This document shows, piece by piece, positions 53,150-64,000 of a stretch of DNA of 64,000 nt (positions within the stretch are counted from its first letter, which is position 1; each line of letters opens with the position of its first letter). Location of the stretch: positions 248,001 to 312,000 of the forward strand of contig NZ_QFWH01000004.1 in assembly GCF_003149375.1 (NCBI RefSeq), in the 5' to 3' direction. Under the pieces are notes generated by a model. That model ran no database searches. It was given only the letters and a program-made list of their open reading frames with translations, and was not told where the DNA came from. The position numbers were made by a program, and so were the translations under genes. The DNA comes from Vampirovibrio chlorellavorus (GTDB taxonomy: Bacteria; Cyanobacteriota; Vampirovibrionia; Vampirovibrionales; Vampirovibrionaceae).

Positions 53150-56100
53150 ATGAGTACCGTCCGTCCTTTTGTTCACCTCCACGTGCATACCCACTACAGT
53201 ATGCTGGATGCGGCCACCCGGGTGCCGGATCTGGTCAAGATCGCCACGGCCAACAATATGCCAGCGGTGGCCATTACCGATCATGGGGTCATGTATGGGG
53301 CGGTCGAACTGTACAACGCCTGCAAAGGCGCTGGCATCAAGGCCATTATCGGGGCCGATATGTACGTGGTGGATGGGGATATTACCGATAAAAGCAGCCG
53401 CCAGCCCATGCACCAGTTGGTTCTGCTTTGCAAGAACGAGATCGGCTATAAAAATCTGGTTAAAATCGTGTCCCGTTCCCACTTGGAAGGCTTTTACTAT
53501 AAGCCACGCATCAACTGGGACATTCTCAAAGCCCACAGCGAAGGGCTGATTGCCCTCACCGGGGATTTGACCGGGCCGGTGGCCCGACCCATTTTGCGGG
53601 GCCATCTGGATGAGGCCCGGGAGCGGGCCCAGTTACTGCAAGGGATTTTCGGGGAAGATCTCTACATTGAAATCGTGGATCATGGGAAGGAACCGGAGTA
53701 CCGCTTTGCCGTAGAGGCGGTTAAAATCGCCCAGGAGTTGGGCATTGAGCTGGTGGCCACCAACGATACGCACTTCTCCCGACCGGGCGATGAGACCATG
53801 CACAATATCCTGCTGTGCATGCAGCAAGGCAAAACACTGGCGGAAAGTGGGTCTCGGGATATTTACGGGCCGCAGTACTACATTAAAAACGGCGATGAAA
53901 TGGCCAAGCTCTTTCAGTTTCTGGACGCCGCTGTTCGGGAGCGGGTGCTGGATAACACCCTGAAAATCGCTGACAAGATTGACTTCAAGATGAAGCAAGG
54001 GGAGTCCATTTTGCCGGACTATCCCATTCCCGAAGGCACCACGCTGGAGAGCGAGCTGGAGCGGGAAGTGATGGAAACCGCCCGGGAGCGCTTTCCTGAA
54101 ATTACGCCTGAGATTCAGGAGCGGCTGGACTTTGAGCTGCGCATTATCAACCAGATGGGCTTTCCGGCCTACTTTTTGATTGTGGCCGACTTTATCCGCT
54201 ACGCCCGGGAGCAGAACATCCCGGTGGGGCCGGGCCGGGGGTCCGCCGCAGGCAGCCTGGTGGCCTTTGTGTTGGGCATTACCGATATTGACCCCCTGGA
54301 GCATAATTTGCTGTTTGAGCGATTCCTGAACCCGGAGCGGGTCTCCATGCCGGACGTCGATATTGACTTCTGCATTGACCGGCGGGGGGATGTCATTGAG
54401 TACGTGCGCCGCAAGTATGGGGCCGACCGGGTTTGCCAGATTATCACCTACGGCACGCTGGCCGCCCGGGCCGCTTTGAAGGCCGTAGCCCGGGTCATGG
54501 AGATTCCCTTTGCGGAAAGCGACAAGTTGGCCAAGATGATTCCCTTTGGGCCTGCCGTCAAGCTGAAAGATGCTTTGGAAGACGGCATGGAGCTGAAAAA
54601 ACTGTATGACACCGACCCAAAGGTGAAAGAATTGGTGGATCTGGCTTTGGCGTTGGAGGGTACTGCGGTTAGTGTGGGTATGCACGCCGCCGGGGTGGTC
54701 ATTTCCAAGGACGCTCTGGATACCATTGTGCCGGTGCAGTTCACCAAGGACGGGCATGAGACCGGACAGATCGTCTCCCAGTATCCTATGGGGGATTTGG
54801 AGAAGCTGGGCCTGCTGAAGATGGACTTTTTGGGCCTGCGAAACCTGACCATCATTGATAACACCGTGCAAATGGTCAAACAAATCCGGGGAGAAGAGGT
54901 GGATATGCGCCACTTGCCGCTGGATGATCAGGATGTCTACGAGATTTTGACCGCAGGCGATACCGATGGCATTTTCCAGCTGGAATCCGGGGGGATGAAG
55001 GCCTTGGTGAAGGACCTGAAGCCGTCCGTGTTTGAAGATATTGGCGCCTTGGTAGCCCTGTATCGACCGGGCCCCCTCAATTCGGGGATGGTCAAGCAGT
55101 TTGTGGACCGGAAACACGGACGGGCCCAGGTGGAGTACAAGCACCCGGCTCTGGAACCACTACTGAAGGACACCTACGGCACCATCGTTTACCAGGAGCA
55201 GATCATGCAGATTGCCCAGTCGCTGGCGGGTTACTCGCTGGGGCAGGCGGACTTGCTGCGTCGGGCCATGGGAAAGAAAAAAGCGGAAATCATGGAGCAG
55301 GAGCGGGCCGGTTTTCTGGCGGGCTGCGAAAAAAATAATGTCGATTTGACCATTGCCAACGAGCTGTTTGACACCATGAGCGAGTTTGCGGCCTACTGCT
55401 TCAACCGGTCGCACTCGGCAGCCTATGCGCTGGTGGCTTACCAGACCGCTTTCCTCAAAGCGCACTATCCGGTGGAATATTTGTCGGCACTCCTCTCCAG
55501 CGTAAGCGGCGATTTGGAGAAGGTGCAGTTTTATATTTTGGCCTGTCGCAAAATGGGTCTTAAAATTCTCCCGCCAGATATTAATAAGTCAGGACAGAAT
55601 TTTACCCCCGATGGGGACAAAGCTATTCGCTTCGGCATGGCCACCATTAAAAACGTAGGCGTGGGCGTGGTGGAAAACATTATTGCCGCCCGCACGGAAA
55701 AACCCTTTGCCTCGCTGGAAGATTTTTGTGAGCGGGTGGATCCCAAGGTGCTGAACCGAAAAACCCTGGAGAGCCTGATTAACAGCGGAGCCTTCACCGA
55801 ATTTGGGATCTCTCGCAAGCAGTTGTTTGGCAATGTAGAAACCATGACCAATTACGCGGCCAAGTGTCAGGAGCAAAAAATTACCGGACAGGCCAGTTTG
55901 TTTTCTCTGCTGGGCGGCGATGATGAAGCCGGTGGGATAGGCGGTTTTGGCGGATTGATTTTATCCGGCGATCCGGCGGAATACAGCGACGAGGAAATTC
56001 AGCAACTGGAAAAAGAGCTGCTGGGCTTTTACGTGAGTAGTCATCCCCTGGATAGTTTGCTGGATAAATTGCCCATGATGACCAGCCATGCCATCGCCGA

Positions 56101-56602
56101 ACTCAAGGATTTCCCCGATGGGGTGGATGTGGTCATTGGCGGGTTGATTTCCAGCTTGCAAAAGAAAATCACCAAAACCAACCGGCCCATCTGGATTGGC
56201 AAGCTGGAAGATTTTTCCAGCGAGACGGAATTTGTCATGTTTTCCGATGCCATTGAGAAGTGCGGAGAGCGGGTGGCTGAAGGCAAGAAAGTGCTGATTC
56301 AGGGGCGCTTGCAATTCCGGGGGGATAATGGGGATCAGTTCAGTATTATCCTGAACGAAGTGCATCCGGTGGACGAGGTGCAACCCTTTCATCTGTTCTT
56401 TGACAGTGCGCCCAAGTGGGAAATCTTGCAGACCATTAGCACCATTTTGGTGAAGAATCGTGGGTTTAATCCGGTGATTCTGAACTTTAAAGATGGCACG
56501 AGAATTAAAGCGGGCACCAAGTTCTGGATTAATAACAATAACCGGGAGTTGGTGAAAGAAACGCTGGAGTCTCACTTCGGGCAGATTTTAAAGGTAGGTT
56601 AA
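53150..56602 (+). CDS. dnaE: DNA polymerase III alpha subunit DnaE
   Basis: 1150 residues, one piece. The N-terminal PHP domain has HLHVHTHYSMLDAATRVPDL. The catalytic palm aspartates are in PDVDIDF (Asp402, Asp404) and LKMDFLGLRNLT (third Asp). GPGRGSAAGSLVAFVLGITD, LYRPGPLNSGMV, YQEQIMQIAQSLAGYSLGQA and FNRSHSAAYALVAYQTAF follow in order. A helix-hairpin-helix and an OB domain (VVIGGLISSLQKKITKTNRP) lie near the C-terminus. It is the replicative polymerase subunit. The PHP His/Asp residues are retained in part. No intein or split is present, unlike many cyanobacterial DnaE. Confidence 0.96.
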   Translation: MSTVRPFVHLHVHTHYSMLDAATRVPDLVKIATANNMPAVAITDHGVMYGAVELYNACKGAGIKAIIGADMYVVDGDITDKSSRQPMHQLVLLCKNEIGYKNLVKIVSRSHLEGFYYKPRINWDILKAHSEGLIALTGDLTGPVARPILRGHLDEARERAQLLQGIFGEDLYIEIVDHGKEPEYRFAVEAVKIAQELGIELVATNDTHFSRPGDETMHNILLCMQQGKTLAESGSRDIYGPQYYIKNGDEMAKLFQFLDAAVRERVLDNTLKIADKIDFKMKQGESILPDYPIPEGTTLESELEREVMETARERFPEITPEIQERLDFELRIINQMGFPAYFLIVADFIRYAREQNIPVGPGRGSAAGSLVAFVLGITDIDPLEHNLLFERFLNPERVSMPDVDIDFCIDRRGDVIEYVRRKYGADRVCQIITYGTLAARAALKAVARVMEIPFAESDKLAKMIPFGPAVKLKDALEDGMELKKLYDTDPKVKELVDLALALEGTAVSVGMHAAGVVISKDALDTIVPVQFTKDGHETGQIVSQYPMGDLEKLGLLKMDFLGLRNLTIIDNTVQMVKQIRGEEVDMRHLPLDDQDVYEILTAGDTDGIFQLESGGMKALVKDLKPSVFEDIGALVALYRPGPLNSGMVKQFVDRKHGRAQVEYKHPALEPLLKDTYGTIVYQEQIMQIAQSLAGYSLGQADLLRRAMGKKKAEIMEQERAGFLAGCEKNNVDLTIANELFDTMSEFAAYCFNRSHSAAYALVAYQTAFLKAHYPVEYLSALLSSVSGDLEKVQFYILACRKMGLKILPPDINKSGQNFTPDGDKAIRFGMATIKNVGVGVVENIIAARTEKPFASLEDFCERVDPKVLNRKTLESLINSGAFTEFGISRKQLFGNVETMTNYAAKCQEQKITGQASLFSLLGGDDEAGGIGGFGGLILSGDPAEYSDEEIQQLEKELLGFYVSSHPLDSLLDKLPMMTSHAIAELKDFPDGVDVVIGGLISSLQKKITKTNRPIWIGKLEDFSSETEFVMFSDAIEKCGERVAEGKKVLIQGRLQFRGDNGDQFSIILNEVHPVDEVQPFHLFFDSAPKWEILQTISTILVKNRGFNPVILNFKDGTRIKAGTKFWINNNNRELVKETLESHFGQILKVG

Positions 56603-56610
56603 TTGTTTTT

Positions 56611-56705
56611 CAGGGGGGCGTTGCCCCCTGTGACCCCACAGGAGGGGGGACAGAGCTTTTCGCTCGTCCTGTCCCCCCTCCTGCCCCCCTCCTGCCCTCC
56701 CCTGC
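56611..56705. repeat. GC-rich double-hairpin repeat, copy C (inverted, divergent)
   Basis: The order is reversed relative to copies A and B: first the GGGGGCGTTGCCCCC hairpin, then CAGGAGGGGGGACAG and its inverse CTGTCCCCCCTCCTG. It starts eight bases after the dnaE stop. Confidence 0.75.
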
Positions 56706-56764
56706 AAAGAATATATTTTAATGTCGAAATGAAAAAAACAGTAAAACCTCCCCTGAGGCCTGAT

Positions 56765-56888
56765 TTGTCATTCCCGAGGAAGCGGGAATCCACGCTGTCT
56801 TTCACGTTTGTACTTATTTATTTCTCTTTTTTGATTGCTGGATCTGCGTGGCTCGGCTCAGCGGATTCCCACTTTCGTGAGAATGACA
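56765..56888. repeat. Inverted pair of ATTCCC-N8-GGGAAT palindromes
   Basis: Left unit TTTGTCATTCCC, GAGGAAGC, GGGAATCCA; right unit GGATTCCC, ACTTTCGT, GAGAATGACA (one mismatch). The interior contains the inverse of the ATCCAGCAATCAAAA string seen in the pair at 20367-20490. Confidence 0.85.
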
Positions 56889-56977
56889 AGAGGTTTGAGG
56901 CCTAAGGAAGGTAGGATAGGTTGGCACGATGGAATGGGGAAAGGTTTGTGGATGGTGGCGGATGCTTGGGCGTTTTT

Positions 56978-57005
56978 CTGGATTCCCACTTTCGTGGGAA
57001 TGACA
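56978..57005. repeat. Single ATTCCC-N8-GGGAAT unit
   Basis: CTGGATTCCCACTTTCGTGG then GAATGACA. It is the same unit as the right ends of the pairs, with a perfect palindrome. It may form a further pair with the unit at 56863-56888, but in the same orientation. Confidence 0.85.
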
Positions 57006-57030
57006 GCGCCATAACAAATTGAAAAGACAT

Positions 57031-57116
57031 GCGTGGGGAGGTCTGGAGGGGGGACAGGGCTTACCCTGGACTCTGTTCCCCCTCCAGTGGGGTGCAAGGG
57101 GCAAAGCCCCTTGAGA
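57031..57116. repeat. GC-rich double-hairpin repeat, copy B
   Basis: CTGGAGGGGGGACAG, its inverse near 57073-57087, then AAGGGGCAAAGCCCCTT. It closely matches copy A at 23613. With copy C it brackets the palindrome cluster, so the whole 56611-57116 gap is repeat DNA and no gene is seen. Confidence 0.87.
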
Positions 57117-57154
57117 AAGAAAAATCCCTATGCGTAGCAATGACAAAAAACTTT

Positions 57155-58999
57155 TTAACAAGCCATATCAATTGCAATTCGGGGACGCCAGGCCAGCCGC
57201 AAGGCGTTGAGAATGGCCAGCAGATCAATGGCTTCCTGCACCAGTGCCCCTTGCACCGGCGAGAGATAACCCAGGGCCGCCAGCCCCATGCCCAGCAGAC
57301 TCAGGACCATGCCCCCGATGGCGCATTGCAGGGCGATCCGGCGAAGCAGCAGGCTGATGTGCAAAAGCTCATCCACTTTGACCAGGGTATTTTCCAGGAT
57401 GACGGCCCCGGCAGCCTCACTGGTGACGCTGCTGTGTTGGCCAAAGGCCAGCCCAACGGTCGCGGTGGCCAGTGCGGGAGCATCATTAATGCCATCGCCC
57501 ATAAACAGGGTGGGAGCCAATGCCGTTTCCGCTCGAACGATAGCGACTTTTTGCTCGGGGGATTGCTCTGCTAACGTGTTCTGAATGCCCAACACCTCTG
57601 CGAGATAGGCCACTTCCGAAGCGCGATCTCCGGACAGCAGCAGGACTTTTTTAAAGCGGTGAGAGGGCCCCAGATGACCAATAAAGGAATGTCCCTCGGC
57701 ACGGGGGGCATCCCGCAGGCGAAATAGTCCGGCGTATTGATCGTCGCACAGTAGAACGCATTCCAATCCCGCGGCCACCGGCGGCAGGTTGGCTGCCAAT
57801 TGTGGCCAGAGTCGGTCAATTTTATGCCGGCTGGTCAAATGCCAGCGGTGTCCGTTGACCAGTCCGGATAGGCCCTGTCCCGGCTTTTCGGAGACTTCAC
57901 CGGCTTTGGGCAGGGGGAGGTTTTCCCGGGCTGCAGCTTCGAGAATAGCGGAGGCCAGTGGATGTTTGGAGTAGCGCTCCAGGCCAGCTGCCGCTTGCAG
58001 TAACGCCGATTTTTGAAAGGAAGGGGCTGGTAAAATTTCCGTCACGGCGGGTTTGCCATAGGTGAGCGTCCCGGTTTTGTCAAAAATAGCGGTTTGGCAG
58101 GTGGGTAAACGCTCCAGCACCACCGGGTCTTTAATAATAATGCCACGTTTGGCGGCCAGAGAAATGGCGCTGATGATGGTGATGGGAATGGCAATCAACA
58201 AAGGACAGGGCGTGGCAATGACCAGCACGGCCAGAAAGCGGACTGCCTCCCCGGTGATAGCCCAGGTAGCCAGTGCCAGCAGCAGGGCTACGGGCGTGAA
58301 GATGGTGCCGATCTGGTCTGCCAGGCGGCGCATGCTGGGGCGTTTCTGTTCGGCATCTTGCATCACAGTCATAATGGTGGCGTAGCGGGAGTCAACGGCC
58401 CGTTTTTCCGCCCGAATCACCAGAGCGGTTTCCCCGTTAATGGCGCCGGACAGGATGGAAGACCCCGGCGCCTTGTCTACCTGATAGGGTTCACCGGTCA
58501 GGTAGGACTCATCCATGCTCCCCTGACCCTCCAGCACCGTACCGTCCACCGGGGCGGTTTCATGGGGAAAGATCACCAGACGATCCCCAATGGCGATCTC
58601 GTCAAGGGCGACTTCCTCAATTTGCTCACCGGTCTGGCGATGGGCGACACTGGGCATCCGCTTGGCCAACGCCTCAAGGACAGAGGAGGCCTTGCGCAAG
58701 GCAAATTGTTCCAGGGTTTGCCCGCCTGCCATCATCAGGACAATCAGCGTTCCGGCCAGATACTCTCCCAGGGCCAGACTGGTCAGCAGGGCCAGCACGG
58801 CCAGAATATCGGCACCGAAGTCTTTCTTGAGCGTTTTCCTAAAGACCTGAAGGGTCAAGGGAATGGCGCTTATGGCCAAAACGGCCTGAAGCGGCAGCAG
58901 GGAGCAGGGGAGCCCCAGTCGCCAGAATAGCCCATGCAGCAATAACCCCACAAGGGTGATTAGGGTAAGTATCGCTGACCAGTGTGGAGAGGTTTTCAT
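57155..58999 (-). CDS. P1B-type heavy-metal ATPase with TPC metal motif
   Basis: 614 residues. There is no N-terminal HMA domain. Landmarks are the TGEPYQV actuator loop, the membrane metal motif ATPCPLL (T263-P264-C265-P266), the phosphorylation site DKTGT with Asp307, the P1B-specific HP in YSKHPLASAI and MGDGINDAPALATATVG. P1B pumps usually carry CPC or SPC; TPC is the hallmark of the P1B-5 group reported for nickel/iron efflux. Metal here unknown. It stands alone, next to a repeat cluster. Confidence 0.9.
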   Translation of the reverse strand: MKTSPHWSAILTLITLVGLLLHGLFWRLGLPCSLLPLQAVLAISAIPLTLQVFRKTLKKDFGADILAVLALLTSLALGEYLAGTLIVLMMAGGQTLEQFALRKASSVLEALAKRMPSVAHRQTGEQIEEVALDEIAIGDRLVIFPHETAPVDGTVLEGQGSMDESYLTGEPYQVDKAPGSSILSGAINGETALVIRAEKRAVDSRYATIMTVMQDAEQKRPSMRRLADQIGTIFTPVALLLALATWAITGEAVRFLAVLVIATPCPLLIAIPITIISAISLAAKRGIIIKDPVVLERLPTCQTAIFDKTGTLTYGKPAVTEILPAPSFQKSALLQAAAGLERYSKHPLASAILEAAARENLPLPKAGEVSEKPGQGLSGLVNGHRWHLTSRHKIDRLWPQLAANLPPVAAGLECVLLCDDQYAGLFRLRDAPRAEGHSFIGHLGPSHRFKKVLLLSGDRASEVAYLAEVLGIQNTLAEQSPEQKVAIVRAETALAPTLFMGDGINDAPALATATVGLAFGQHSSVTSEAAGAVILENTLVKVDELLHISLLLRRIALQCAIGGMVLSLLGMGLAALGYLSPVQGALVQEAIDLLAILNALRLAWRPRIAIDMAC

Positions 59000-60505: not shown

Positions 60506-61129
60506 ATGATGAAATTTTCAGGCATTGACAGATTCGTTAAGGGAATCCGGTCAGGCTTTACATTGGCGGAATTACTGGTTACCTTGCTCATTCTGGCTGA
60601 AATTTTTGTATTTACCATTCCCAAAGTGCTGGTTACCCAACGCAATCAACAGTACAACGCCCGGGCCAAAGAGGTGGCGGGCATGATTACGGGGGCCTAC
60701 CAGCAATTACAACTCAACGGCGGGCTCAGTGCGGCTACCAAAGGCAAAGATTTAACGCCCTACATGAACTTTGTCAGTGTGGATACCACCAGTTTCATTG
60801 ATAGTTTAGGTTCAGCGGCTTATTCGGAAGTCTGCAACAGTTCCATGCCCTGCTTGCGCTTACACGGGGGAGGGCTGTTGCGGATAGGAGTGCATGGTTG
60901 CTATTGTGAAGTTACGTTTTGGGGAACCAGCACCACGAACTATATTGGTTTTCAGTTTGATCCGGATGGCTTAGCCTTGGGTGGCACGAATAAAGATGTG
61001 ATTGAATTTGATCTTTTTTATAATGGGAGACTGACGACCCGAGGTGCAACGAGCGGCTGGATTCAATCTAGCGGTATGGCTACATCCTCTACCGCTCCAG
61101 ACTTTGATCCTGCCTGGTTCTCCTGGTAA
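60506..61129 (+). CDS. Type IV prepilin-like protein (N-methylation motif)
   Basis: 207 residues. The leader RFVKGIRSG is followed by FTLAELLVTLLILAEIFVFT, the type IV prepilin cleavage/methylation motif with Glu at +5. The rest is a globular domain with CNSSMPCLRL and HGCYCEV, so two disulfides are possible. AGGAG lies five bases before the ATG. It may be a minor pilin of a type IV pilus or a type II secretion pseudopilin. No other pilus genes are adjacent. Confidence 0.85.
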   Translation: MMKFSGIDRFVKGIRSGFTLAELLVTLLILAEIFVFTIPKVLVTQRNQQYNARAKEVAGMITGAYQQLQLNGGLSAATKGKDLTPYMNFVSVDTTSFIDSLGSAAYSEVCNSSMPCLRLHGGGLLRIGVHGCYCEVTFWGTSTTNYIGFQFDPDGLALGGTNKDVIEFDLFYNGRLTTRGATSGWIQSSGMATSSTAPDFDPAWFSW

Positions 61130-61375
61130 CAGTCGCCAGTCCGCTTTAAGGCACCCCTGCCCAGTGGCCTGCCTTTTGCCTGATTGCACAGGGCTCCCTG
61201 CTTGTGCATTGCGCAAAGGTACCTCCCTCAGGAGTGCCTGTGTAAAAGTATTACAGGCTTACTCGGCGGAGTCCTGTCTCTTCAGTTCATTTCCTTGTGA
61301 ATGGTGTGCGAATATTTGAAAAAAACTGCAGGTACAACCTGTTTTGGAAAGCCTCTTTACAACAGGACAGAATGC

Positions 61376-61402
61376 AAAAAACACCCGGAAAAGGGGTGTT
61401 TT
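61376..61402 (-). terminator. Terminator of the tRNA-Arg locus
   Basis: ACACCC and GGGTGT pair around GGAAAAG, flanked by A and T runs. On the minus strand it reads GGGTGT then TTTTT. It lies 17 bases past the CCA end of the tRNA fragment. It could also stop prepilin transcripts. Confidence 0.7.
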
Positions 61403-61418
61403 GAGAAGACTTAAAAAG

Positions 61419-61463
61419 TGGCGCGCTCGGAGAGATTCGAACTCCCGACCTCATGGTTCGTAG
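61419..61463 (-). pseudogene. tRNA-Arg(ACG) 3' fragment, probable attachment site
   Basis: On the minus strand the sequence runs CTACGAA (anticodon loop, anticodon ACG), CCATG (anticodon stem), AGGTC, a T-arm with loop TTCGAAT, CGAGCGC (acceptor 3' side), G and CCA. The 5' half (acceptor, D-arm, 5' anticodon stem) should follow immediately on the right but does not: upstream bases read GGGTCATC. The break lies exactly at the anticodon loop, the usual crossover for tyrosine integrases that use tRNA genes. Together with the native terminator, this is the displaced end of an integrated element. Confidence 0.8.
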
Positions 61464-61762
61464 GGATGACCCATGCTGATTGGCTTTCCAGGTTTTATAA
61501 GTCAATTTAGACCAAAAACAATATCTTTTTCAAATTTTATGTCACTCTGCAGGCCAATTTAGTGACGTATTTTCAAAAGCCAAGGCTGAAAACATTGATA
61601 GCATTTACATTTTAAACCATATTCTACAACCAGTTGATGACATCAAAGAGACATAACTGGAGCACATCTTAGACTGGCCCAGACACATCTTGCCTACAAA
61701 TGGCCCCCTATCAGACAAAAAATAGAATCAACTAGGTCTTTTTAAGAAAGGTTCTATATTTT

Positions 61763-62209
61763 TCAGGCCAGTAGACGGGGATAAAACTTCTTCAGCCAAT
61801 CCAGAACATCCTGGCGAAACGCTCCAAGCTCTTCCAATAATTCTGCCACGCCCGAGTTCGAAACAACACCCGCCCGCTCATACTCGGAGGCATTGCGCAT
61901 CTTCCGGCAATTATCCAGATAATGAATACGCGCTTTGGCATCACCACCCATGGTAAACCGCAGGGATTGGATGGTGATATAGTGATGTCCCACACTGGCT
62001 GAAGGCCGGTAGCCTGAAGCGTATAACAGAATCGTGGCTAGCTGCAGGGCCGCTTGATAAGCAATCGTAAACCGGTTATCTGGCGATAACGCTTCAATGG
62101 AAGCATCCCGGATGTTTCGCTCAATCGCTTGTAGCAATTGGGCCACTTCTTGCGAAGTGGTCTGGTGAGGTTTTAGTTTCCCCTCATTCAACCATTGCTG
62201 TAAACTCAT
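61763..62209 (-). CDS. HEPN-domain protein, partner of MNT nucleotidyltransferase
   Basis: 148 residues, helical. HEPN features are AYQAALQLATILLYASGYRP and the C-terminal RKMRNASEYERAG. In ribonuclease HEPN proteins a motif RX4-6H provides the catalytic His; here R105-N-A-S-E-Y110 puts Tyr at that place. It overlaps the upstream MNT gene by 26 bases. HEPN/MNT pairs form toxin-antitoxin systems in which MNT can adenylylate the toxin. Whether this copy is toxic is doubtful. Confidence 0.8.
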   Translation of the reverse strand: MSLQQWLNEGKLKPHQTTSQEVAQLLQAIERNIRDASIEALSPDNRFTIAYQAALQLATILLYASGYRPSASVGHHYITIQSLRFTMGGDAKARIHYLDNCRKMRNASEYERAGVVSNSGVAELLEELGAFRQDVLDWLKKFYPRLLA

Positions 62210-62774
62210 CCTGAGTTCCTTTTAACCAAATTTTTGGGGTTTCCATTAGCTCAATGGCAAAACGGTTTTGATCCTGAAGCCGCTGTCGGTAATCAGCTAC
62301 CGTCATGATAACAGGATTGAACTCCCGCTTCAGGTTATCCGTGCTATCCGCCATGGCCTGTGAGAGGCTTTTTAAGCTCACATCCCCCAGTAAAAACAAA
62401 TCAATGTCACTCTCAGCGGTGGCATTGCCTTTGGCTAGAGAACCAAAGATAAAGGCCAGTTTGACCTTTTGATCCAACGGCTCCAGCGCTACTTTTAAGG
62501 CCGTGGCCATTGCATCGGTTTTCAGAAAGGCCTGTTGCAGATCCTGAAAAGCCGGATGAGCTTGTTTAGCCTGATAATAGACCCGGTTCCCGCTTTTTTC
62601 TTGGGCAATCAAATCCGTTTTCTCAATGCGCCCTAGGGCATGCTGGACTTGCAGCAGGGAATGGCCGGTTGTTTCAGCAATTTCCCGCTGATAATAGCGG
62701 CTATCAGGATGTGTGAGAAACAGGCACAGCACATCCACCAGAACCGGGCTTGGAAACAGGGGCATGAGCGACAT
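62184..62774 (-). CDS. MNT nucleotidyltransferase with N-terminal winged helix
   Basis: 196 residues. Residues 1-70 form an ArsR-like winged helix (YYQREIAETTGHSLLQVQHA). Residues 105-130 carry the minimal nucleotidyltransferase motif: G111-S112, then D123 and D125 (IFGSLAKGNATAESDIDLFL). AAGGA lies nine bases upstream of the ATG. It leads the operon; the DNA-binding part suggests self-regulation through the palindrome at 62776-62792. It resembles MntA-type antitoxins with an added repressor domain. Confidence 0.85.
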   Translation of the reverse strand: MSLMPLFPSPVLVDVLCLFLTHPDSRYYQREIAETTGHSLLQVQHALGRIEKTDLIAQEKSGNRVYYQAKQAHPAFQDLQQAFLKTDAMATALKVALEPLDQKVKLAFIFGSLAKGNATAESDIDLFLLGDVSLKSLSQAMADSTDNLKREFNPVIMTVADYRQRLQDQNRFAIELMETPKIWLKGTQDEFTAMVE

Positions 62775-62775
62775 C

Positions 62776-62813
62776 GACTAACATCCTTAGTCTTTTGACC
62801 AATTTTATTAGTC
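62776..62813 (-). promoter_or_regulatory. Putative operator of the MNT-HEPN operon
   Basis: A perfect inverted repeat GACTAA-CATCC-TTAGTC (62776-62792) touches the start codon region. A further TTAGTC half-site lies at 62808-62813, 21 bases (two helical turns) from the first, directly after the -10 box. Confidence 0.55.
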
Positions 62814-62842
62814 ATTATGACATGCCGACTACAGACGCGCAA
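62814..62842 (-). promoter_or_regulatory. Promoter of the MNT-HEPN operon
   Basis: On the minus strand TTGCGC (62837-62842), a 17-base spacer and CATAAT (62814-62819). The expected start site falls inside the TTAGTC half-site region. Confidence 0.5.
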
Positions 62843-63183
62843 GCCTCAAGGTATATCAATCCATCTAGAAGGACGAGCCTTTGGCAGGGAAAACCCAATG
62901 GCGGCCCTTGGGGCAAGAAGGCAAACTCGAGCTTGACCTGCAGTCAGTCGCAAAACCCATCGCTTCGCAATGCTCCCTAATGTATGCGACACAGCAACTA
63001 AATCCGGTGGAAAGAAGGACGTTTGAAAGAGAGGAAAGCAACTAAAATCAGTCATTTAGTATAAGTGACCATTTCTGTAATACCCCATAGCTTTAGCAGT
63101 ATTGACTTTAAAACCATGCTCGACTAATCCAAAGTAACTATTTGGATTGACCAAAAATGGACACGCACATTTAACGTTCTCTC
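62843..63183. other. Non-coding or decayed DNA, about 340 bp
   Basis: Short open frames on both strands lack start signals and match nothing I recognise. The AT content rises after 63040. It may hold the vanished 5' part of the ATPase pseudogene. Confidence 0.4.
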
Positions 63184-63518
63184 ACTGCCGCGATTCAGGA
63201 AGCCAGTGCCAGTATTAAAGTACTGCTCCTGACTAGCTCACAGCAATACAACAGGCCAAAATTTCACAGAATCCCTCGCTGGACGTTTAACTATTGCTAC
63301 TTCAAGGTATTACATTTGCTGAAGAGGAAGGGCGCGTATAGGTTTTGCCGTTTCTGCCGGATCTGGAACGATTAAAGTTACGATAGGAACAGGCAAAACC
63401 ATTGACCTTACCAGAGGTTTACCACAAAATCTGGCGCGGCTCTTATCCAGATATGGAGGTACAGGACAGTAAAACTGAGGACACTTCTAAGGTCAAGACC
63501 ACGCCAAAGGAAATATAG
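63184..63518 (+). pseudogene. Decayed AAA ATPase of the DUF4143 type
   Basis: Reading across frames gives VLLLTSSQQYN, then ESLAGRLTIA, then LQGITFAEEEGRV, then VLPFLPDLERLKLR, then LPEVYHKIWRGSYPD, in the order seen in DUF4143 ATPases (LTGSQQF..SLAGR..IWRGSYP). At least two frameshifts (about 63255 and 63302) and two in-frame stops (after EGRV and after LKLR) interrupt it. The Walker A part is absent. The final TAG is at 63516-63518. Confidence 0.7.
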
Positions 63519-63898
63519 CACTGCTACTCTTAGTTAAATCCCCTTGTCTGCAGAAAGGCAGGCGTTCACTCCACCCAAAAAGCTTTGCAACTTTCCGTAG
63601 TGCCTCTCTGGATAGAACCTGCCAAAAACTGAACCTCTGTTAGGCATCTTAGTCTGTAAGTAGACATTGATTTGATACAATAACTACCAGAACCAAAGAC
63701 CCCCAGCAATAATTTATCAACCGAAAGCAAAAACGGTTAGTGCTGAATTGTCCACCATGCCCTTTGAACTAGAGTCCATACGGTAACTTTGGGTTAGAAT
63801 TTTGGTCTTGACCCGAAAAGCCTACAAGGCGACGTGAGAAAATCGGGGTTCAACAGCTTGGCAAACCAAGCTCCTTGCAGCGGTAAAGAAATGAGAAT
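63519..63898. other. Non-coding or decayed DNA, about 380 bp
   Basis: I see no convincing frame. A minus-strand stretch near 63535-63615 reads as a short helical peptide (VLSREALRKVAKLFGWSERL), but it has no identifiable gene context. Confidence 0.4.
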
Positions 63899-64000
63899 CT
63901 GCTCTACTGAAGAATTATGAGGGCGGACATCATTGTAATCTTTTCGCCAAACTTCAACTTTCCCCTACGCCCCTAAAGACAAGAAGCAATCTTGATTCAA
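63899..64000 (-). pseudogene. IS3-family transposase (OrfB) C-terminal remnant
   Basis: The minus strand reads LNQDCFLSLGA, stop, GKVEVWRKDYNDVRPHNSS. This matches the end of the IS3-type integrase core (LNQHWFLSLEDA..KIEAWRxDYNxxRPHSSL). The in-frame TAG and loss of similarity after HNSS show decay. The rest of the gene would lie to the right of the window. Confidence 0.75.

Follow-up and report, generated by a model that had tools for sequence, protein, structure and literature searches.

A displaced tRNA-Arg(ACG) half in Vampirovibrio chlorellavorus and a probable clade of tyrosine integrases split by their own integration

Introduction

In the myxophage Mx8, integration alters the C-terminus of the integrase, and in ICEclc expression of the integrase needs a signal, the promoter Pcirc, which lies outside the gene and is brought beside int only in the circle. 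The Islander survey of tRNA-targeted islands recorded an anticodon-centred crossover in 2083 of 3919 islands, noted tandem arrays, and named the Mx8 and SSV integrases as extending across attP (PMC4383910). For the archaeal SSV-type integrases (SSV1, pTN3, pT26-2), a 2021 review calls the 'suicidal' kind exclusively archaeal; the pT26-2-type family uses 14 tRNA genes, and variable translations of att are tolerated (PMC8371274). In the ssrA islands of Dehalococcoides, integrase-less cassettes bounded by repeats of tRNA/tmRNA 3' ends are stacked with integrase-bearing ones (PMC3146451). Our literature search settled no bacterial precedent beyond Mx8.

The window analysed here is a stretch of 64,000 nucleotides, positions 248001-312000 of contig C4, which ends at 313937, in the 2.79 Mb genome G000 of Vampirovibrio chlorellavorus. 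A preliminary description of it had proposed that a tRNA-Arg(ACG) 3' half close to its right end marks the edge of an integrated element.

Results

The tRNA half in the window

The features of the window that bear on the junction are as follows.

53150-56602, plus strand: dnaE, the chromosomal anchor of the left side (a fliI-type ATPase comes directly after dnaE in genome G008)
60506-61129, plus strand: prepilin-like gene, the nearest chromosomal gene on the left side of the junction, with the same place left of the fragment in the sister genome G002
61375-61404, minus strand: intrinsic terminator downstream of fragment 1, hairpin ACACCCC-TTTTC-CGGGTGT and T-run, read from the sequence
61419-61463, minus strand: fragment 1, the tRNA-Arg(ACG) 3' half from anticodon loop to CCA, a displaced att fragment identified by identity with C8:5891-5967
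61464-64000, no strand: inserted DNA, which continues beyond the window as far as the end of the contig (C4:313937) and is unrelated to the tRNA 5' half
61763-62209, minus strand: 148 aa ORF, partner of the adjoining MNT gene (PADLOC PDC-M05B)
62184-62774, minus strand: 196 aa nucleotidyltransferase MNT, Polbeta/NTP_transf_2 (PADLOC PDC-M05A)

Read on the minus strand, positions 61463-61419 give CTACGAACCATGAGGTCGGGAGTTCGAATCTCTCCGAGCGCGCCA, the last 45 bases of tRNA-Arg(ACG) with CCA included, which are identical to the 3' end of the genome's own intact tRNA-Arg(ACG) at C8:5891-5967. The sequence right of 61463 is unrelated to the tRNA 5' half, and ARAGORN found no complete tRNA in the whole 64,000 nt. 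The preliminary description, an intact 3' half followed by a terminator with the 5' half replaced by unrelated DNA exactly at the anticodon loop, is thus borne out. A 40-base core of the fragment matches the 2.79 Mb genome at exactly three places, each time on the minus strand (the window, C8:4828-4867 and C8:5895-5934), and the reversed control pattern has no match in the same genome; fragment 1 is therefore not a chance match. The terminator shares 85% identity over 78 bp with the stretch adjoining the intact tRNA (C8:5818-5893). The original 3' end had been said to stay at this junction; the terminator beside fragment 1 need not be original, because most copies carry a different one.

Where relatives have this site sequenced, the DNA of 61464-64000 is missing, and we infer that its 148 aa ORF is probably the HEPN-type half of a toxin-antitoxin pair. 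Contig C4 ends in an insertion sequence (IS) 4.5 kb right of fragment 1. Paralogues of the prepilin-like gene form a large family, with 42 matches in G004, 38 in G001 and 11 in G000. Between dnaE and a P-type ATPase, positions 56603-57161 hold palindromic repeats (translation SFPRKREST / CHSHESGNP) that resemble a REP element; Rfam 'miRNA' matches at 56.6 and 57.0 kb were rejected as hairpin repeats below the gathering score.

The integrase and the intact tRNA on contig C8

The two further core copies lie at the start of contig C8 in the same orientation as in the window; they belong to a second fragment (fragment 2) and, ~1 kb beyond it, to the intact tRNA-Arg(ACG) at C8:5891-5967 (ARAGORN). 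The predicted full tRNA whose last 45 bases repeat 61419-61463 thus exists, in the predicted orientation. At its start the contig carries genes for a phage replication initiation protein and a DnaB-like helicase, then one for a 383 aa protein outside known families and one for an integrase. The integrase (C8:3604-4893) is a 429-codon frame with HTH_17 and Phage_integrase domains (PF00589, E 4e-37); it adjoins fragment 2 and reads away from it, and so supplies the tyrosine integrase that had been expected next to a tRNA copy. A Doc-like toxin gene and a small Arc-like gene sit between fragment 2 and the intact tRNA, and the gene to the right of the latter we read from its sequence as a fliI-type ATPase, which has one universal paralogue in the order. 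The predicted far end therefore holds for the integrase and the intact tRNA, with the difference that fragment 2 and a ~1 kb Doc toxin-antitoxin cassette intervene. The phage genes on the sequenced ends of C4 and C8 are those for replication and integrase only; the structural and packaging genes of a complete prophage would have to lie in the gap.

As in the islands of Islander, an intact tDNA and a displaced downstream 3' fragment are present in the same orientation, here on contigs linked by synteny, with the island and a tyrosine integrase (C8:3604-4893) between the ends (PMC4383910). The sequenced length is at least 4.5 + 4.8 kb, excluding the gap, compared with the Islander range of 2-200 kb on one replicon. 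Unlike those islands, the array is composite, with a ~1 kb Doc cassette that lacks an integrase, and the att core falls within the integrase gene.

The same site in relatives

In G008, of the same family, dnaE (C13:115486-118893, plus strand) and the fliI-type ATPase (from 119032, plus strand) are 138 bp apart. G000 has dnaE to the left of fragment 1 and the ATPase to the right of the intact tRNA, and in G004 the dnaE side and the tRNA-ATPase block are on one contig with the block inverted. In the sister genome G002, one contig (C326) carries part of dnaE, the P-type ATPase, YitT, the prepilin gene, a tRNA fragment, Fic and hsdR, and another (C9) carries hsdS, hsdM, a fragment, a Doc cassette with 97% identity to that of G000, the intact tRNA and the ATPase. 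From the dnaE-fliI adjacency in relatives and the split of hsdR from hsdSM in G002, rather than from a sequenced junction, we infer that the right end of C4 joins the left end of C8 across an assembly gap caused by an IS, and the content of that gap is deduced in the same way. The IS at the end of C4 also stands at the ends of C3 and C10 and at the start of C4 itself. Since C4 ends in it 4.5 kb on, the distance to the second copy is not measurable.

Because the adjacency joins the contig ends in relatives, which place the C8 locus right of the dnaE side, the element foreseen to extend right to an intact tRNA and an integrase is present, as a composite array instead of a single element. The outcome named beforehand as refuting this reading, a relative with the truncated tRNA and no insertion, did not occur: G002, the only sister with the fragment, has inserted DNA. 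This DNA is a type I restriction system (hsdR / hsdS-hsdM) with SoFic (L119:7213-10430 and L118:1-2628), so that different cargo fills the tRNA-Arg(ACG) site in sister species, a restriction island in the case of G002. A direct empty site, with prepilin gene, tRNA and ATPase and no insert, was not found in four congeners.

In G001 the intact tRNA adjoins the ATPase and the left neighbours differ. An element of the same integrase clade occupies tRNA-Gly(CCC) about 750 bp after dnaE in this genome (L141:12079-13380), and the dnaE side has therefore been struck by more than one element. The tRNA-ATPase block inverted relative to dnaE in G004 (C7:71717-86354; L140, L120) has one end at a tRNA-anchored element. 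The small contigs C12-C14 of G000 were considered as fillers of the gap and none could be placed; from translations read by eye, C12 holds UmuDC, a transposase and a repressor, C13 holds sensor kinases and C14 looks like rRNA, and C12 and C13 share an IS end.

Other junctions and cassettes

Nine further 3'-half fragments (G000 C8, G002 C9, G002 C326, G004, two in G010, G047, G007 and the viral contig L165), of which those of G000 C8 and G002 C9 are the same junction by descent, begin in the anticodon loop or at its edge. The fragments of G047, G007 and L165 adjoin conventional integrases with start codons of their own, and a viral contig (L164) carries an intact tRNA-Arg(ACG) beside an integrase. 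Several unrelated integrases use this site; therefore the footprint as such is ordinary, comparable to that of known tRNA-targeted islands (PMC4383910; PMC9897764). The half-tRNA alone is textbook, and it is the integrase clade that is unusual.

The Doc cassette of G000 measures about 1.07 kb, with tRNA 3' halves on both sides and no integrase, and a 1.2 kb cassette containing a single DUF2971 gene occupies the matching position in G004. Such single-module cassettes of ~1 kb, flanked by tRNA-Arg 3' halves and lacking an integrase, lie by the intact tRNA at L039:4868-5890 and L118:2958-3963 (Doc) and at L120:2344-3535 (DUF2971). They resemble cis-mobilisable elements (PMC3146451).

The integrase frame runs through the tRNA

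A profile search of the order for integrases of the C8 type gave 37 matches in 10 of 18 genomes, and relatives in Vampirovibrio adjoin other tRNA genes. Fifteen full-length HTH-integrases of this clade in Vampirovibrionales lie directly 3' of tRNAs of ten kinds: Arg-ACG (fragment 2), Asp-GTC, Val-CAC, Gly-CCC, Glu-TTC, Pro-GGG, Pro-CGG, Ile-GAT, Ser-GGA and His-GTG. In 13 of the 15, the int frame is stop-free over the last 45 nt of the tRNA, the terminator and the sequence up to the HTH domain, whereas the other two frames over the same stretch are open in only 2 of 30 cases (Fisher P 1.3e-7, with the two other frames of the Arg copy taken as closed). Three copies (L175, L180 and L189) have no ATG, GTG or TTG between the tRNA and the HTH, and several integrated copies have internal GTG or TTG codons as possible translation starts. 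The frame used through the tRNA varies between elements; therefore it is an open frame that is kept and not a particular peptide.

Related integrases of another family in the class, located away from tRNAs (L221-L224, L169), have a Shine-Dalgarno motif and ATG directly before the HTH. The frame is again open through the tRNA in L225, a relative without the HTH that adjoins tRNA-Asn. Neither close relatives nor free forms of the integrase were found in IMG/VR, phages or plasmids, where the best matches reached about 25-30% identity, and viral, phage and plasmid collections yielded no circular form of the elements.

In G000 (C9:10052-12330), G014 (L190/L197, C33:12705-14652) and G007 (L194/L202, C5:4327-6274), two related tyrosine integrases converge, only one of which has the HTH. 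The spacing is about 365 bp in G000 and about 11 bp in the other two genomes, and the pairs possibly form a two-recombinase module. Motifs like AAAGTTCAACAT are repeated upstream of the HTH at int 5' ends (e.g. L166:4980-5070) and on far arms, and are candidate arm-type integrase sites.

Start codons at the far ends

For seven elements, spread over six contigs, the two ends are found on the same contig.

G007 C29: two elements in tandem, tRNA-Glu, 11.2 and 12.4 kb
G005: tRNA-Glu, 8.8 kb
G003 C10: tRNA-Asp, 10.2 kb
G014 C63: tRNA-His, 6.0 kb
G002 C230: tRNA-Val, 17.9 kb
G001 C16: tRNA-Asp, 11.4 kb

In all seven, a start codon (six ATG and one GTG with AAGGAGG) lies on the far arm, 20-51 bases ahead of the core and in frame with both core and int, and joining the two ends gives an ORF of 420-447 codons with 0 stops. 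The far-arm site GGTCAGGAG is present in four of the seven and the N-terminus MAK in five; the ribosome site is weak in G005 and G014. A Shine-Dalgarno-like motif with an in-frame ATG or GTG within 60 nt occurs at 3% of random positions. The att core is thus inside the int reading frame in 13 of 15 clade members and in the seven joined ORFs, and at sequence level the seven elements show the split frame itself, with integration parting the 5' end from the catalytic body, so that the far end keeps the start and the tRNA end the body.

On the element side of fragment 1 in the window no start codon is found in the int frame. The candidate role of this fragment as the start-bearing end of the C8 phage is accordingly unsupported, and it is possibly part of a different module of the array; for the window's element the split is therefore extrapolated from the clade. 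At fragment 2 on C8, the neighbouring Doc cassette provides an ATG in the int frame, 6 nt ahead of ACG, that lacks a good Shine-Dalgarno motif. The C8 integrase copy could therefore be expressed, its start perhaps restored by a tandem neighbour. In G003 C10, the reading frame from the far-arm start continues into the leader of the next element, but the copy there is frameshifted.

Discussion

We propose, with a probability of roughly 0.86, that a composite array occupies tRNA-Arg(ACG) with C4 and C8 joined, and that its integrase belongs to a clade whose genes span attP and whose integration separates the start from the body. Fragment 1 would be the displaced 3' half at the left of this array, which would run right across the assembly gap into C8, through the replication genes, the integrase with fragment 2, the Doc cassette and the restored tRNA to the ATPase. 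In the excised circle, translation would begin at the far-arm Shine-Dalgarno motif and ATG (MAK...) and pass through the tRNA 3' half and the terminator into the HTH and catalytic domains. Upon crossover in the tRNA, the ribosome site, start codon and first 6-17 codons would stay at the far end, and the integrase body would come to sit behind the tRNA and its terminator. Since attP, the tRNA 3' half plus terminator, would be translated within the integrase, each integration would remove the promoter, ribosome site and start codon. With the body in the lysogen behind the tRNA terminator and lacking a start of its own, the integrase would be made mainly from the circle, and excision would need a complete copy from outside. 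Integration therefore probably switches the integrase off and becomes difficult to undo until a complete copy is provided, although this expression switch, unlike the split frame, is deduced from the gene arrangement.

The clade could instead be made of ordinary tRNA-targeted islands in which the integrase starts at an internal GTG or TTG past the tRNA, the open frame and the far-arm ATG being coincidental. One or two open frames are common in tRNA 3' halves, and such codons do follow the tRNA in several integrated copies. However, the int frames are open far more often than the others (13/15 vs 2/30), L175, L180 and L189 offer no such codon before the HTH, and an in-frame start stands on every one of the seven far arms, mostly with the conserved GGTCAGGAG and MAK codons. 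We therefore regard coincidence as unlikely.

As to the locus itself, fragment 1 might be an old relic whose partner end was lost, with C8 located elsewhere in the chromosome. The contig gap and the missing int start arm at fragment 1 would fit such separate events, as would the observation that in the genus tRNA-Arg adjoins the fliI-type ATPase and that dnaE is directly joined to the ATPase only in G008. The adjacency in G008, the single contig in G004, the hsdR / hsdSM split across the same gap in G002 and the matching orientation of all copies speak against it, and we consider it improbable, slightly more so than the coincidental start. A tRNA-like fragment produced by random duplication or misassembly is barely credible: the assembly is in many contigs and C4 ends in a repeat, but the fragment lies 4.5 kb inside C4, G002 has one at the homologous place, and the other junctions break at the same anticodon-loop position, several of them beside integrases.

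The composite array and its att-spanning integrase can be set against the known systems. Like the SSV-type integrases, the clade has att inside the int frame, a variable translated att, a 5' part split from the catalytic body and many tRNA targets. It differs in its bacterial host and N-terminal HTH_17, and in that only the start site, a short leader and the tRNA half are split off while the HTH and catalytic domains stay together; this comparison rests on the published descriptions. Mx8 is likewise a bacterial phage whose integrase gene contains attP, but the clade here loses its start on integration. As in ICEclc, a signal for int is rejoined only in the circle, which here includes the start codon and first codons too. 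The stacked Dehalococcoides islands differ in using serine recombinases and tmRNA.

It is likely that Vampirovibrionales hold a clade of self-splitting tyrosine integrases that use at least ten tRNA genes and maybe re-form their genes in tandem arrays, as a bacterial counterpart of the archaeal suicidal integrases. The clade matters because self-disrupting integrases have been described only from archaea (PMC8371274). With several tRNA targets and complete elements to work from, an independent case in bacteria lets the evolution of one-way integration be tested, as well as target switching when att is part of the protein and the revival of genes by tandem neighbours. For this predatory lineage with few described phages, the junctions give precise boundaries of mobile elements, and they mark tRNA-Arg(ACG) as a hotspot for phage, restriction and toxin-antitoxin modules.
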